A DNA stretch of 64,000 nucleotides from an uncultured Lachnospiraceae bacterium (lineage in GTDB: Bacteria > Bacillota > Clostridia > Lachnospirales > Lachnospiraceae), in contig ONHG01000002.1 of assembly GCA_900317585.1 (NCBI GenBank), positions 1 to 64,000 on the forward strand, written 5' to 3'. The position numbers and the translations under genes are program-made. Positions 9,777 through 15,050 of the stretch are shown here, in pieces. How positions within the stretch are numbered: position 1 is the stretch's first letter; every line of letters begins with the position of its first letter. Below the pieces are notes generated by a model. That model was not told where the DNA came from and did no database searches. It saw only the letters and a list, made by a program, of their open reading frames with translations.

Positions 9777-9955
9777 ACCGTTTAATTCCTTCCTAAATAA
9801 AATATGCGATAAGTGTACCATAATTTTTTAAAATAATCTACAGTGCAATAAAAGGTTGACATATCTAAGTTCAAAGCTTATTGTGGTAGCTGGAATGTAA
9901 AAAATAGTATAATTATAAACTACAGATTATGGATATGATGGAGGCTTTATTTGAG

Positions 9956-10900
9956 ATGGAAAATTTAATGTTTTGTCTAAATGCCACAGGACCTATTTTT
10001 CTGATGATGGTGTTTGGACTTTTTCTTCGCAAAGTGGGAATTTTGGACGAAGACTTTGCAAATAGGATGAATAAGTTTGTGTTTAAGATTCCTTTACCAT
10101 TTTTGCTGTTTAGCGATCTTGCAGCGGTTGATTTTTCAAAGGTTTGGAACATTAAGTTTATAGTATTCTGCTTTGTGGTTACGCTGATAAGCATTACAAT
10201 ATCAACACTTGTTTCCTGTTTGTGGAGGGATAAATCCATACGGGGCGAGTTTATACAGGCCTCATACAGAAGCAGTGCGGCGCTGCTTGGAATAGCTTTT
10301 ATCCAGAATATCTATGGAAATGCAGGCATGGCACCTGTCATGATTATAGGAAGTGTGCCGCTTTACAATGTGATGGCGGTTATAGTACTTTCGTTTTTTA
10401 AGCCGGGGCAAAACGGCATAGACAGGGCAGTGCTCAAAAAGACATTTAAGGGAATAGTGACCAATCCTATTATTTTAGGAATTGTTGCAGGACTTCTGTG
10501 GTCAGCTATAGGCCTGCCATATGCAGGAATACCGGCAAAGGCAGTGACGAGCGTTGGCAATATGGCTACACCTATGGGGCTTATGGCCATGGGTGCCACC
10601 TTTGATTTGAAAAAAGCATCAGCAAAGGCAAAGCCGGCATTTGCAGCCACATTTATCAAGCTTGTAGGCTTTGTAGCAGTATTTCTTCCTATTGCAGTAG
10701 CTTTCGGGTTCAGGGATAGTGAGCTTATTGCAATTCTTGTGATGCTTGGCTCAGCTACTACAGTGAGCTGCTTTGTCATGGCAAGAAATATGGGGCATGA
10801 GGGCGTTATCTCATCGACCACGATAATGCTCACGACACTGCTCAGTGCTTTTACACTGACCCTTTGGCTTTATATAATTAAAAGTCTGGGGCTTGTATAA
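9956..10900 (+). CDS. AEC family transporter (auxin-efflux-carrier type permease)
   Basis: A 314-residue, roughly ten-helix membrane protein. The N-terminus (P-I-F-L-M-M-V-F-G-L-F-L-R-K-V-G-I) and the central N-P-I-I-L-G-I-V-A-G-L-L region are characteristic of AEC (PF03547) carriers, which export organic anions or amino acids. Start at 9956 after GGAGG (9941-9945); an ATG at 9929 is also in frame but poorly placed. The substrate is unknown. It is followed by the amino acid ABC operon, but a 140-base gap with its own promoter separates them. Confidence 0.85.
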   Translation: MENLMFCLNATGPIFLMMVFGLFLRKVGILDEDFANRMNKFVFKIPLPFLLFSDLAAVDFSKVWNIKFIVFCFVVTLISITISTLVSCLWRDKSIRGEFIQASYRSSAALLGIAFIQNIYGNAGMAPVMIIGSVPLYNVMAVIVLSFFKPGQNGIDRAVLKKTFKGIVTNPIILGIVAGLLWSAIGLPYAGIPAKAVTSVGNMATPMGLMAMGATFDLKKASAKAKPAFAATFIKLVGFVAVFLPIAVAFGFRDSELIAILVMLGSATTVSCFVMARNMGHEGVISSTTIMLTTLLSAFTLTLWLYIIKSLGLV

Positions 10901-10969: not shown

Positions 10970-11040
10970 GTTAAAAGATTGTAGTTATTGGATGCTTCTG
11001 AATAATTACAATGATTATTTAACATATGGAGGAAATGAGT

Positions 11041-11847
11041 ATGAGAAGAGGATTAGCACTTCTTTTGACAGCAACTTTAGCACTTTCAATGACTGCCTGT
11101 GGTGGCAGCAAGGGTGCAGGAACACAAAAAAGCGAAAAGGGCGACGGCATGACCTACGCAGTTGAGGCAGGCTCAGCAGGAGAGGCTGTGGCAAAGGAAA
11201 AGGGCTTTAATTACAATTCGGTTTCATCACAGGCTGATGCGCTTATGGAGGTTAAATCAGGTACATCTGATGCGGCAATCATAGACCTTTTAATGGCAGG
11301 AGCCATGATTGGAGATGGCACAAGCTACCCTGATTTAGTACATACAACAGAGCTTACATCAGAGAAGTATGGTGTCGGATGCCGTAAGGGTTCTGATCTT
11401 GCTTCATATATCAACAGTGTACTCGCAGAATCATATGCTGATGGCAGCGCGCAGGAGATTGCAAAGAAATACGGAGTACAGGATTCACTCCTTGAGCAGG
11501 AGCCTTGCGAGTTCAAGCAGTCTGAAAGCGACAGTGATGTGGATTATATCAAGTCACAGGGCAAGCTGATAGTCGGTATCACAGAGTTTGAGCCTATGGA
11601 TTACAAGGATAAGGATGATAAATGGATTGGCTTTGATGCAGATATGGCTAGACTTGTCGGTGAGAAGCTCGGCGTGGATGTTGAATTTGTAGTTATCGAC
11701 TGGGACAACAAGGTTATGGAGCTTGATTCAAAGAAGATTGACGTTGTCTGGAATGGTATGACACTCACAGATGAGGTTACAAAGTCTATGGAATGCACAA
11801 ATGCATACTGTAACAATGCACAGGTAGTTGTTGAGCGGGAGAAATAA
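11041..11847 (+). CDS. Amino acid ABC transporter substrate-binding lipoprotein, circularly permuted
   Basis: A 268-residue lipoprotein: signal peptide with lipobox ending at C20, short G/S/K linker, then binding-protein halves in reversed order. Residues ~39-153 (A-V-E-A-G-S-A-G-E-A..., A-L-M-E-V-K-S-G-T-S-D-A-A, Y-G-V-G-C-R-K-G-S-D-L, E-I-A-K-K-Y-G) are what normally forms the C-terminal half of a HisJ/GlnH-type protein. Residues ~165-264 (D-Y-I-K-S-Q-G-K-L-I-V-G-I-T-E-F-E-P-M, W-I-G-F-D-A-D-M-A, W-N-G-M-T-L-T-D-E-V) are the normal N-terminal lobe, ending at the hinge strand N-A-Q-V-V-V. A 12-residue linker joins them. The usual segment just after the hinge is missing. Start supported by GGAGG at 11027-11031. 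Permease and ATPase follow directly. Confidence 0.88.
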   Translation: MRRGLALLLTATLALSMTACGGSKGAGTQKSEKGDGMTYAVEAGSAGEAVAKEKGFNYNSVSSQADALMEVKSGTSDAAIIDLLMAGAMIGDGTSYPDLVHTTELTSEKYGVGCRKGSDLASYINSVLAESYADGSAQEIAKKYGVQDSLLEQEPCEFKQSESDSDVDYIKSQGKLIVGITEFEPMDYKDKDDKWIGFDADMARLVGEKLGVDVEFVVIDWDNKVMELDSKKIDVVWNGMTLTDEVTKSMECTNAYCNNAQVVVEREK

Positions 11848-11848
11848 A

Positions 11849-12505
11849 ATGTTCTGGACTGTTACACAAGCACTTATGAGTGGTCTGTGGACCACTTTTG
11901 AAATATTTATACTCACACTTATATTTGCACTGCCACTGGGGCTTATATTTGCATTTGGGCTTTTGAGCAGGTTTAAGCCTGTCAAGGCTGTCATGAATGT
12001 GTTTGTATGGGTTATCCGCGGCACACCGCTTATGCTTCAGCTTATCATTATATTCTACGGACCGGGCTTGTGGCTTCATCAGGCTATATGGAGTGGTGAC
12101 GAGACCGGACGTATTACAGCGACGGTTGTAGCGTTTGTCATCAACTATGCATGTTATTTCTCTGTTATATTCAGAGGTGGCATAGAGGGTGTTCCGGCCG
12201 GTCAGAGAGAGGCAGGACAGGTGTTAGGCATGACAAAGCAGCAGATTTTCTTTAAAATCACTCTGCTTCAGATGATCAAGCGTGTTGTTCCGCCTATGTC
12301 AAATGAGATAATCACTCTGGTAAAGGATACTTCTCTTGCCAGAATTATTGCGGCATACGAGCTTACCTTTGCGGGAGCGGCGTTTATGAAGTCTGACGGA
12401 CTTACATGGCCACTGTTTTATACAGGTGTATTTTATCTCGTATTTGTCGGAATCCTTACACTTTTATTTAATTATATCGAGAAAAAGCTGGATTATTTCA
12501 GGTAG
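11849..12505 (+). CDS. Amino acid ABC transporter permease
   Basis: A 218-residue HisM/GlnP-type inner-membrane permease with about five helices. The EAA-type loop that docks the ATPase is visible as E-A-G-Q-V-L-G-M-T-K-Q-Q-I-F-F-K-I-T-L-L-Q. The early V-I-R-G-T-P-L-M-L-Q-L motif is characteristic of polar amino acid permeases. It starts one base after the binding-protein stop; an in-frame TTG at 11828 would overlap it. Confidence 0.92.
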   Translation: MFWTVTQALMSGLWTTFEIFILTLIFALPLGLIFAFGLLSRFKPVKAVMNVFVWVIRGTPLMLQLIIIFYGPGLWLHQAIWSGDETGRITATVVAFVINYACYFSVIFRGGIEGVPAGQREAGQVLGMTKQQIFFKITLLQMIKRVVPPMSNEIITLVKDTSLARIIAAYELTFAGAAFMKSDGLTWPLFYTGVFYLVFVGILTLLFNYIEKKLDYFR

Positions 12506-12514
12506 GAGGAAGAC

Positions 12515-13300
12515 ATGGCAATTTTAGAGGTTAGAAATATAGAAAAACACTTTGGAAGGACTAATGTGCTTAAGGATGTCAGTTTTTCCATGGAGGAGGG
12601 CAATGCTCTTGCCATAATCGGTTCATCAGGCTCAGGAAAGACTACGCTGTTACGGTGTCTCAATTTCCTTGAGAGACCTGACAGTGGTCAGATTATTGTG
12701 AATGGTGAGACACTCTTTGATGCTTCCGAAGCGGGCAAGGATAAAGACGCGGAGCTTCGCAAAAAGAGGCTGCATTTTGGTATGGTGTTTCAGCAGTTTA
12801 ATCTTTTTCCACAGTACACAGCACTTGAGAATGTTACTCTGGCAGAGCGCCTTCTGGCACAGGAGACACCTGAGTTTAAAAAGGATAAAAAAGCAATCCT
12901 TACACGTATTGATGAGCATGGAAAGGAGCTTCTGGACAGGATGGGGCTTGCTGAGAGGATGAACCATTATCCGCATCAGCTCTCAGGTGGACAGCAGCAG
13001 CGTGTAGCTATAGCAAGGGCACTGGCACTTAAGCCTGATATACTCTGCTTTGATGAGCCTACATCTGCTCTTGACCCGGAGCTTACCGGAGAGGTGCTCA
13101 AGGTCATCCGTTCCCTTGCGCAGCAGAATACCACAATGATTATTGTTACACATGAGATGGCCTTTGCGCGTGATGTCGCAGATCAGGTGATCTTCATGGA
13201 CGGTGGTGTGATTGTTGAGCATGGTGACCCACATGAGGTGATTGACCATCCGAAGGAGGAGCGTACCAGGCAGTTCCTCACCAGATATGCGAACGGCTGA
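12515..13300 (+). CDS. Amino acid ABC transporter ATP-binding protein
   Basis: A 261-residue ATPase of the polar amino acid (GlnQ/HisP) class. It has Walker A G-S-S-G-S-G-K-T-T at 36-44, a Q-loop (V-F-Q-Q-F-N-L-F-P), the L-S-G-G-Q-Q-Q-R signature near 156, Walker B I-L-C-F-D-E-P with the following T-S-A-L-D, and an H-loop T-H-E-M. It is preceded by TAGGAGGAAGAC. It couples ATP hydrolysis to uptake through the upstream permease; the specific amino acid cannot be assigned. Confidence 0.95.
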   Translation: MAILEVRNIEKHFGRTNVLKDVSFSMEEGNALAIIGSSGSGKTTLLRCLNFLERPDSGQIIVNGETLFDASEAGKDKDAELRKKRLHFGMVFQQFNLFPQYTALENVTLAERLLAQETPEFKKDKKAILTRIDEHGKELLDRMGLAERMNHYPHQLSGGQQQRVAIARALALKPDILCFDEPTSALDPELTGEVLKVIRSLAQQNTTMIIVTHEMAFARDVADQVIFMDGGVIVEHGDPHEVIDHPKEERTRQFLTRYANG

Positions 13301-13445: not shown

Positions 13446-15050
13446 ATGGCAAATGTTGATTTAACAAAGTATGGCATTACCGGAACAACAGAGATCGTTC
13501 ACAATCCTTCTTACGAGACATTATTCGAGGAAGAGACAAAAGCCGGCCTTGAGGGTTACGAGGTTGGTAAGGAGACAGAGCTTGGTGCAGTTAACGTTAT
13601 GACAGGTATCTACACTGGACGTTCTCCTAAAGATAAATATATCGTTATGGACGAGAATTCTAAGGACACAGTATGGTGGAATACACCTGAGTATCCAAAC
13701 GACAACCATCCAATGAAAGAGGATGTTTGGGCAACAGTTAAGGATCTTGCTAAGAAAGAGCTTAGCAACAAGAAGCTTTTCGTAGTAGATGCATTCTGTG
13801 GAGCAAACAAGGATACACGTATGGCTGTTCGTTTCATCGTTGAGGTTGCTTGGCAGGCTCATTTTGTAACAAACATGTTCATCCAGCCATCAGCAGAGGA
13901 GCTTGAGAACTTCGAGCCTGATTTCGTAGTATACAATGCTTCAAAGGCTAAGGTTGAGAACTACAAGGAGTTAGGTCTTAACTCAGAGACATGTGTTGCA
14001 TTCAACATCACATCAAAAGAGCAGGTTATCATCAATACATGGTACGGCGGAGAGATGAAGAAGGGTATGTTCTCTATGATGAACTACTACCTCCCACTCA
14101 AGGGCATCGCTTCAATGCACTGCTCAGCAAACGCTGACATGAACGGAGAGAACACAGCAATCTTCTTCGGTCTTTCAGGAACAGGTAAGACAACACTTTC
14201 TACAGATCCTAAGCGTCTTCTTATCGGAGATGACGAGCACGGCTGGGATGACAACGGTGTATTCAACTTCGAGGGTGGATGCTACGCTAAGGTTATCGGT
14301 CTTGACAAAGAGTCTGAGCCTGATATCTACAACGCAATCAGAAGAGATGCTCTTCTTGAGAACGTTACAGTTGCTGATGATGGAAAGATTGATTTCGAGG
14401 ACAAGAGTGTAACAGAGAATACACGTGTATCTTACCCAATCAACCACATCACAAATATTGTTAAGCCAGTATCTTCAGCACCGGCTGCAAAGAACGTAAT
14501 CTTCCTTTCAGCAGATGCATTCGGAGTACTTCCACCAGTATCTATTCTTACACCTGAGCAGACACAGTACTACTTCCTTTCAGGATTTACTGCAAAGCTT
14601 GCAGGAACAGAGCGTGGAATTACTGAGCCAACACCTACATTCTCAGCTTGCTTCGGACAGGCATTCCTTGAGCTTCATCCTACAAAATACGCTGCAGAGC
14701 TCGTTAAGAAGATGGAGAAGTCAGGCGCTAAGGCATACCTTGTAAATACAGGATGGAACGGAACAGGAAAGAGAATCACAATCAAGGATACAAGAGGAAT
14801 CATCGACGCTATCCTTTCTGGTGATATCCTTAATGCTCCAACAAAGAAGATCCCTATGTTCGATTTCGAGGTTCCTACAGAGCTTCCAGGAGTTGATTCA
14901 GGAATCCTTGATCCTCGTGACACATATGCTGATGCTTCTGAGTGGGAGGCAAAGGCTAAAGATCTTGCAGAGAGATTCAACAAGAACTTTGTTAAGTACA
15001 CAACAAATGAGGCTGGTAAAGCACTTGTTGCAGCAGGACCACAGTTATAA
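13446..15050 (+). CDS. pckA: Phosphoenolpyruvate carboxykinase (ATP)
   Basis: A 534-residue enzyme of normal family length. It interconverts oxaloacetate plus ATP and PEP, CO2 plus ADP; in anaerobic gut Clostridia it often runs toward oxaloacetate. Visible motifs are Y-T-G-R-S-P-K-D-K near the N-terminus, the PEPCK-specific Walker [10 protein letters not shown] near 242, and the G-D-D-E-H-G-W metal/nucleotide region just after it. Codon use is strongly biased (highly expressed style). It stands alone between its own promoter and a strong terminator. Confidence 0.97.

Follow-up and report, generated by a model that had tools for sequence, protein, structure and literature searches.

The window analysed here, 64,000 nucleotides of contig ONHG01000002.1 (assembly GCA_900317585.1) from an uncultured Lachnospiraceae bacterium, holds at 11041-11847 of its forward strand an uninterrupted reading frame for a 268-residue lipoprotein, P0001 (11041-11844), that carries the two halves of a family-3 substrate-binding protein (SBP; Pfam SBP_bac_3) in inverted order. 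Its translation begins with a lipoprotein signal peptide (11041-11100) whose last residue is the lipobox cysteine, C20, assigned by the lipobox motif, followed on the same strand by a low-complexity tether from lipid anchor to domain (11101-11145; model residues 1-26 have a predicted local confidence (pLDDT) below 50). What is the second half of a canonical protein comes first (11146-11499, residues 36-153) and spans lobe 2, hinge crossover 2 and the helices at the C-terminal end of lobe 1; about 11 linker residues (11500-11532, residues 154-164) then lead from the old C-terminus to the old N-terminus, and the canonical first half, i.e. N-terminal lobe 1 through the first hinge strand, comes last (11533-11844, residues 165-268). 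A ribosome-binding site (GGAGG, 11028-11032, forward strand) lies 8 nt upstream of the ATG at 11041; an alternative start is possible at 11026, and the placement of GGAGG fits the ATG at 11041, in line with the good ribosome site seen by an initial annotation made from the sequence alone.

When P0001 was compared by phmmer with the Protein Data Bank (PDB), the best chain, 6svf, proved to be a canonical ArgBP to which the halves align in inverted order: residues 167-267 match 6svf 3-104 (independent E-value 1.5e-16) and residues 36-142 match 6svf 118-224 (1e-9). On a profile built from 10 canonical relatives, the first half of P0001 corresponds to positions 143-272 and the second to positions 30-138. 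Pfam assigns the protein to SBP_bac_3 (PF00497) alone, with 95.8 bits against a cut-off of 26.4, the match being confined to residues 177-266 (profile 2-92 of 132); by score P0001 is a member of the family, and the N-lobe-first order of the canonical form is not the one it has. These searches reproduce to within a few residues the permuted order first proposed (39-153, linker, 165-264). With two halves that are homologous to one canonical orthologue, stand inverted and have the old termini joined, P0001 has the marks of a naturally circularly permuted protein, and we regard it, on sequence evidence, as confirmed to be a permuted SBP_bac_3 protein and the observation as real.

We refer to permutation at hinge crossover 1, the window type, as cut 1 and to permutation at hinge crossover 2 - where the C-terminal helices of lobe 1 open the chain and lobe 2 stands at its end (L168, L154 and L116 are examples) - as cut 2. 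Among the best stretches listed for any PDB chain (best 60 of the 79, 85 and 74 matches of P0001, one cut-1 relative and one cut-2 relative) none crosses the new junction, except in the tandem-domain chain 6h30, where the match runs from the first domain into the second. The best 60 of the 79 matches of P0001 are amino-acid-type binders and kin such as cyclohexadienyl dehydratase, with no sugar binder among them. Structure prediction, as suggested at the outset, gave a confident single-chain model (pLDDT 89, predicted TM-score (pTM) 0.80, linker blocks 95). Foldseek and VIA-align returned matches to the N-half alone or low-identity matches over the whole length; the latter can stem from the two-lobed pseudo-symmetry of the fold and are not used as support.

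In profile searches, the frame is followed on the same strand by a permease (11849-12505; BPD_transp_1, with HEQRo_perm_3TM above its cut-off) and an ATPase (12515-13300; ABC_tran) of the ATP-binding cassette (ABC) type, as expected from the initial annotation, which had described ordinary transporter genes at this place. Further neighbours are an auxin-efflux-carrier-like Mem_trans gene upstream (9929-10900) and an ATP-dependent phosphoenolpyruvate carboxykinase gene downstream (13446-15050).

Canonical orthologues and selection

Permuted proteins of the window type (group A, 20 distinct proteins) form one clade (support 99/98, 11 thinned rows). Aligned through the junction, the permuted gene is present in 14 of 62 genomes of the genus, one being that of the window and the other 13 showing 64-98% identity; the copy with 98% identity comes from a single-contig genome of 3,449,685 bases. 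Contig searches returned 80 loci (8 permuted, 71 canonical, 1 partial), with canonical-order orthologues turning up in numerous records under the titles Lachnospiraceae, Oscillospiraceae or Clostridia. That close relatives may carry the canonical order, as the initial annotation had suggested checking, is borne out by these orthologues, which come with the same permease and ATPase. The closest one, L066 from a Pseudobutyrivibrio metagenome-assembled genome, shares 76% (N-half) and 75% (C-half) identity with P0001 and is the top canonical gene by C-half identity and the runner-up by N-half identity.

Permease and ATPase accompany all 13 group-A loci checked (11 distinct genomes). Outside the genus, 15 of 16 canonical loci, hand-picked out of 72, have both a permease (57-66%) and an ATPase (60-73%) like those of the window, the remaining one, L067, being without a like ATPase. 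Both are also present next to the canonical genes of two genomes within the genus, G031 and G082 (halves 68%/57%), and neither accompanies L210, a more distant paralogue from the genus. The operons L087, L099, L116 and L132 each hold two binding proteins, namely the window gene's orthologue in canonical order and, behind the ATPase, another that is permuted at hinge 2.

The segment that leads from the hinge strand into lobe 2 is 18 residues long in 76 and 20 residues long in one of the 77 canonical orthologue records and, as had been noticed for P0001 at the outset, is missing after the hinge: it has no counterpart in any of the 20 distinct group-A proteins. The absence of this inter-lobe segment from the permuted proteins makes it simplest to regard the permuted form as derived. 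The group-A linker contains the motif SDVxY in 19 of 20 cases (GDV in the other) and resembles the peptide S-D-L/V/M-x-Y found ahead of the N-lobe in 51 of the 77 canonical records, as expected if the tail of one gene copy joined the head of a second.

Selection on P0001 is purifying in both halves when compared with two Roseburia, which bears out the intact frame claimed initially. For the mature protein the proportion of non-synonymous differences (pN) is 0.13 against synonymous proportions (pS) of 0.79 and 0.73 towards R. porci and R. faecis, respectively; in the linker, pN (0.26 and 0.46) exceeds that of either half. Towards the neighbour with 98% identity there are 5 synonymous and 5 non-synonymous changes (ratio of the respective rates, dN/dS, 0.26).

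In family-3 binders, the arginine of a TxER motif holds the alpha-carboxylate of the ligand, and an aspartate in lobe 2 serves its alpha-amino group. The arginine is kept in 35/35 other cut-1, 20/26 cut-2 and 35/39 other canonical proteins; in the canonical orthologues of the window gene the position is Val in 71 of 74 and L or I in the rest. The aspartate is kept in all group-A proteins (20/20) and in all canonical orthologues (74/74). A substrate name for the transporter from NCBIfam was rejected, the equivalog cut-offs (cystine TcyN, GlnQ, HisP etc.) not being reached by the permease (best 115.8 of 248 needed), P0001 (best 73.5 of 312) or, among the best 25 of 192 families, the ATPase (303.5 of 406).

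Recurrence of permutation in SBP_bac_3

Permuted SBP_bac_3 proteins recur across the order, class and phylum of the window. Sorted by the order of profile segments, the fetched proteins comprise 73 cut-1, 26 cut-2, 116 canonical, 2 partial and 2 multi-domain records (55, 26 and 113 distinct proteins for the first three classes), counts that are not prevalences because the searches were seeded with permuted queries. A third cut, inside lobe 2, is found in three genomes of one family code (L220:1393-2199, L225:654-1550, L230:1396-2214). Cut-1 junctions themselves vary: the short helix that precedes lobe 2 is lacking in the window group, stands at the N-terminus in the L023 type and at the C-terminus in the L221 type. 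Match spans were also tried as a sign of permutation: among 20 stretches fetched, L198, L202 and L206 proved canonical and L209 unclear, and since several such guesses failed in this way, no other group was counted from spans alone.

Rows for trees were thinned for near-identity (97% permuted, 80% canonical) and again at 86% and 75%, respectively, which left 111 rows; without seven long-branch rows and with the columns around both main cuts removed, the resulting 104-row tree requires at least 11 switches of order. Judged by its well-supported branches, cut 1 needs at least 5 changes and cut 2 at least 7, and a single origin of either cut occurs in none of 200 bootstrap trees, the bootstrap not being fully settled. 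Trees in which all cut-1 rows (lnL 340 lower, p 1.4e-90) or all cut-2 rows (lnL 442 lower, p 9.7e-8) are held together were rejected. A quick tree of 123 rows, cut 3 included, needs 13 changes; L251 and L254, canonical by a wider profile, stand outside it. Such a change of order may be a gain or a loss. Among pairs of opposite order, L168 (cut 2) and L189 (canonical) are the cleanest; they come from one genus code (g179) and have halves that are 79% and 75% identical.

The initial annotation assumed that in HisJ/GlnH-type proteins the L-x-V-G lobe invariably comes first, a premise that finds no support here. In 21 genomes of the genus (18 with a match to the SBP_bac_3 profile at E 1e-8), 22 of 40 open reading frames (ORFs) are permuted, not counting a broken one: 20 have cut 1, 1 is the broken cut 1, 2 have cut 2, 15 are canonical and 2 are unclassified (L272, L278). 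Two of the 20 are tandem permuted domains, and L261 is without the start of its first half. This census left out 18 ORFs with frames of at least 700 residues, kept the 1145-residue G080:C53 and took the classes of L041 and L211 from the earlier profile-segment classification. A search at E 1e-5 in the draft genome to which the window belongs found 3 SBP_bac_3 genes, every one of them permuted. Across the phylum, 27 of 299 genomes match the cut-1 alignment at E 1e-35 or better, many of them by halves and hence canonical.

Permuted domains occur standalone ahead of permease and ATPase, fused to a permease in chains of about 500 residues (L021 and L022 in the window's genome), as two permuted domains in tandem before a permease (L203, 782 residues) or within one 910-residue chain made up of permuted binding domain, permease and ABC ATPase (L205:2153-4885). 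Beyond the short group-A loci, 70 of 77 permuted records have a permease and an ATPase like those of the window, 4 a permease only and 3 neither (L168, L170, L176), counted over the nearby stretch or the same chain, with some loci repeating one gene. In Roseburia porci, one permuted SBP-permease fusion (L270, G062:C17) was seen to be split over two frames.

Discussion

Our findings make it very probable that P0001 is the lipid-anchored SBP of a three-gene ABC importer of the polar-amino-acid type, permuted at crossover 1 and one of several independent permutations in SBP_bac_3. Its chain would have been cut at the first hinge crossover, with a short linker joining the old termini, both of which lie in lobe 1, and with new termini placed where the first hinge strand formerly entered lobe 2. 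Lobe 2 would be contiguous, lobe 1 would consist of the tail plus the head of the old sequence, and the two lobes would be joined covalently by one crossover rather than two. Such a protein should still fold, close like a Venus flytrap and pass its ligand to the permease. As judged by selection P0001 is functional; it would bind a ligand, and the permutation may bring some advantage.

We envisage that the swap was fixed in an ancestor of the Roseburia/Agathobacter group and that the independent permutations at crossover 1, at crossover 2 and inside lobe 2 would most simply have arisen by tandem duplication and loss of the outer halves. For P0001 this route, already put forward in the initial annotation, seems plausible, with indirect support: the linker motif speaks for it, and so do tandem canonical SBP genes (L122) and tandem permuted domains (L203, L217, L253, L273) elsewhere. 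Against it stands that no remnant of a second copy turned up: tblastn with both halves on the window, and on 13 flanking loci from 11 distinct genomes, hit nothing beyond the gene itself except distant canonical SBPs in L061 and L062.

Apart from this missing remnant, several points weigh against our interpretation. Which way the order changed is a matter of argument, not of demonstration, because the closest outgroups to the orthologue clade (L190, L172 and L183 in a quick tree) carry permutations of other kinds. Between the two halves, identities to canonical orthologues show a weak correlation (r 0.23, 75 rows), and the fold search tests halves and not the whole, since an aligner bound to sequence order cannot superpose a permuted domain as a unit. 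Of the changes that separate P0001 from the neighbour with 98% identity, 3 non-synonymous and 2 synonymous ones fall in the C-half (dN/dS 0.45), numbers too small to carry weight. Finally, the position of the carboxylate arginine is Val in 20/20 group-A proteins, so an amino-acid ligand is not assured. This loss is, however, not due to permutation because canonical orthologues are without the arginine too.

Since the genome behind the window is a draft assembly of 52 contigs, one might suspect a mis-assembly or a recent accident of one strain. Independent assemblies speak against it, with the same order in 13 further genomes of the genus, including the single-contig one, and in R. porci and R. 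faecis, so that we give this option practically no credit. A decaying remnant, i.e. a shuffled gene that is translated but useless, could be read from the absence of both the inter-lobe segment and the carboxylate arginine, yet the arginine is equally absent in 74/74 canonical orthologues, the operon is retained and both halves are under purifying selection, all of which renders decay very improbable.

The weak correlation between halves might rather suggest a chimera of two different paralogues instead of one duplicated gene, all the more as the top identity for the N-half belongs to L067 (80%), whose C-half reaches only 55%. However, L066 ranks at or next to the top with both of its halves, and canonical genes differ alike between N- and C-halves (74%/61% for L066 against 73 others, 70%/60% for P0001 against 75); to our minds, a chimeric origin is improbable. 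As to the working form, a domain-swapped dimer in which halves of two chains pair may be sterically easy once one crossover is cut, but the single-chain model is confident, and we consider such a dimer unlikely compared with the permuted monomer.

Natural permutation of binding proteins is known, and as far as we have seen the SBP_bac_3 permutants are a new, recurrent form of it with close canonical kin. Canonical HisJ, GlnH and Thermotoga maritima ArgBP share with P0001 the homologous halves, lipoprotein nature, operon type and alpha-amino Asp, and differ from it in the order of the halves, the inter-lobe segment that it lacks and the carboxylate Arg that is Val in P0001. GlnPQ-type proteins resemble the permuted fusions in having one or more SBP domains, sometimes in tandem, joined to a permease (6h30; L203), whereas in the latter the fused domains are themselves permuted, so that the permease is joined at the hinge strand. 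Glycine-betaine and molybdate binders are type II proteins. For glycine-betaine-binding (OpuAC, ProX) and molybdate-binding proteins and CysB, CPSARST found permutation relations at <24% identity (PMC2395249). They are like ours in that binding proteins occur in permuted versions; there, however, they were found by structure between proteins of different ligands, while in SBP_bac_3 they fall within orthologues, can be placed on trees and are repeated.

TpMglB-2 (Tp0684) from Treponema pallidum is a naturally permuted, membrane-tethered type I glucose-binding protein with permuted homologues, proposed as Type Ic / Cluster Bc, whose topology its authors raise as a possible adaptation to membrane anchoring (PMC4990184). 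It shares with P0001 natural permutation, the tether and permuted homologues; unlike P0001 it is a sugar binder of type I with three canonical crossovers plus a fourth, and its permuted part has 13% identity to canonical kin in the paper's alignment compared with 75-76% per half between P0001 and a canonical orthologue (PMC4990184). In Pfam and among the best 60 of its 79 PDB matches, P0001 shows no type I (cluster B) sugar-binding homology that would place it in Type Ic / Cluster Bc. Among the open-access papers listed for the subject we found no report of permuted SBP_bac_3 proteins, which is weak evidence as subscription papers were mostly outside this scope. Text searches gave no mention of swap, permutation or topology in PMC2861598 and none of permutation or topology in PMC13199436; in PMC9732360, where OpuAC was also sought, the sole permutation passage concerns a permuted green fluorescent protein sensor.

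There is a practical warning for annotation here, since Pfam gave only half of P0001, and permutants can be misread in trees or distances built on the assumption of canonical order. One may go further and speculate that permutation is a regular mode in family-3 binders, repeated at three loops including both hinge crossovers, and that it spread to the majority of cases in Roseburia/Agathobacter because the lipid anchor or fused permease moves onto the hinge, which alters the mechanics of closing and docking; this is a tentative idea that we hold to be rather doubtful. What is clear is that the swapped order in this nutrient-capture protein of a gut bacterium is common to many species, under selection and, within the protein family, repeated at more than one point of the chain, and its recurrence is more interesting than P0001 as a single gene. 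The two earlier published cases known to us are at low sequence identity; here, opposite orders meet at 75-79% (L168/L189). With this close pair, several independent events at different loops and fusions to permease and ATPase, SBP_bac_3 offers natural replicates that permit direct tests of hinge, tether and docking in ABC binding proteins.
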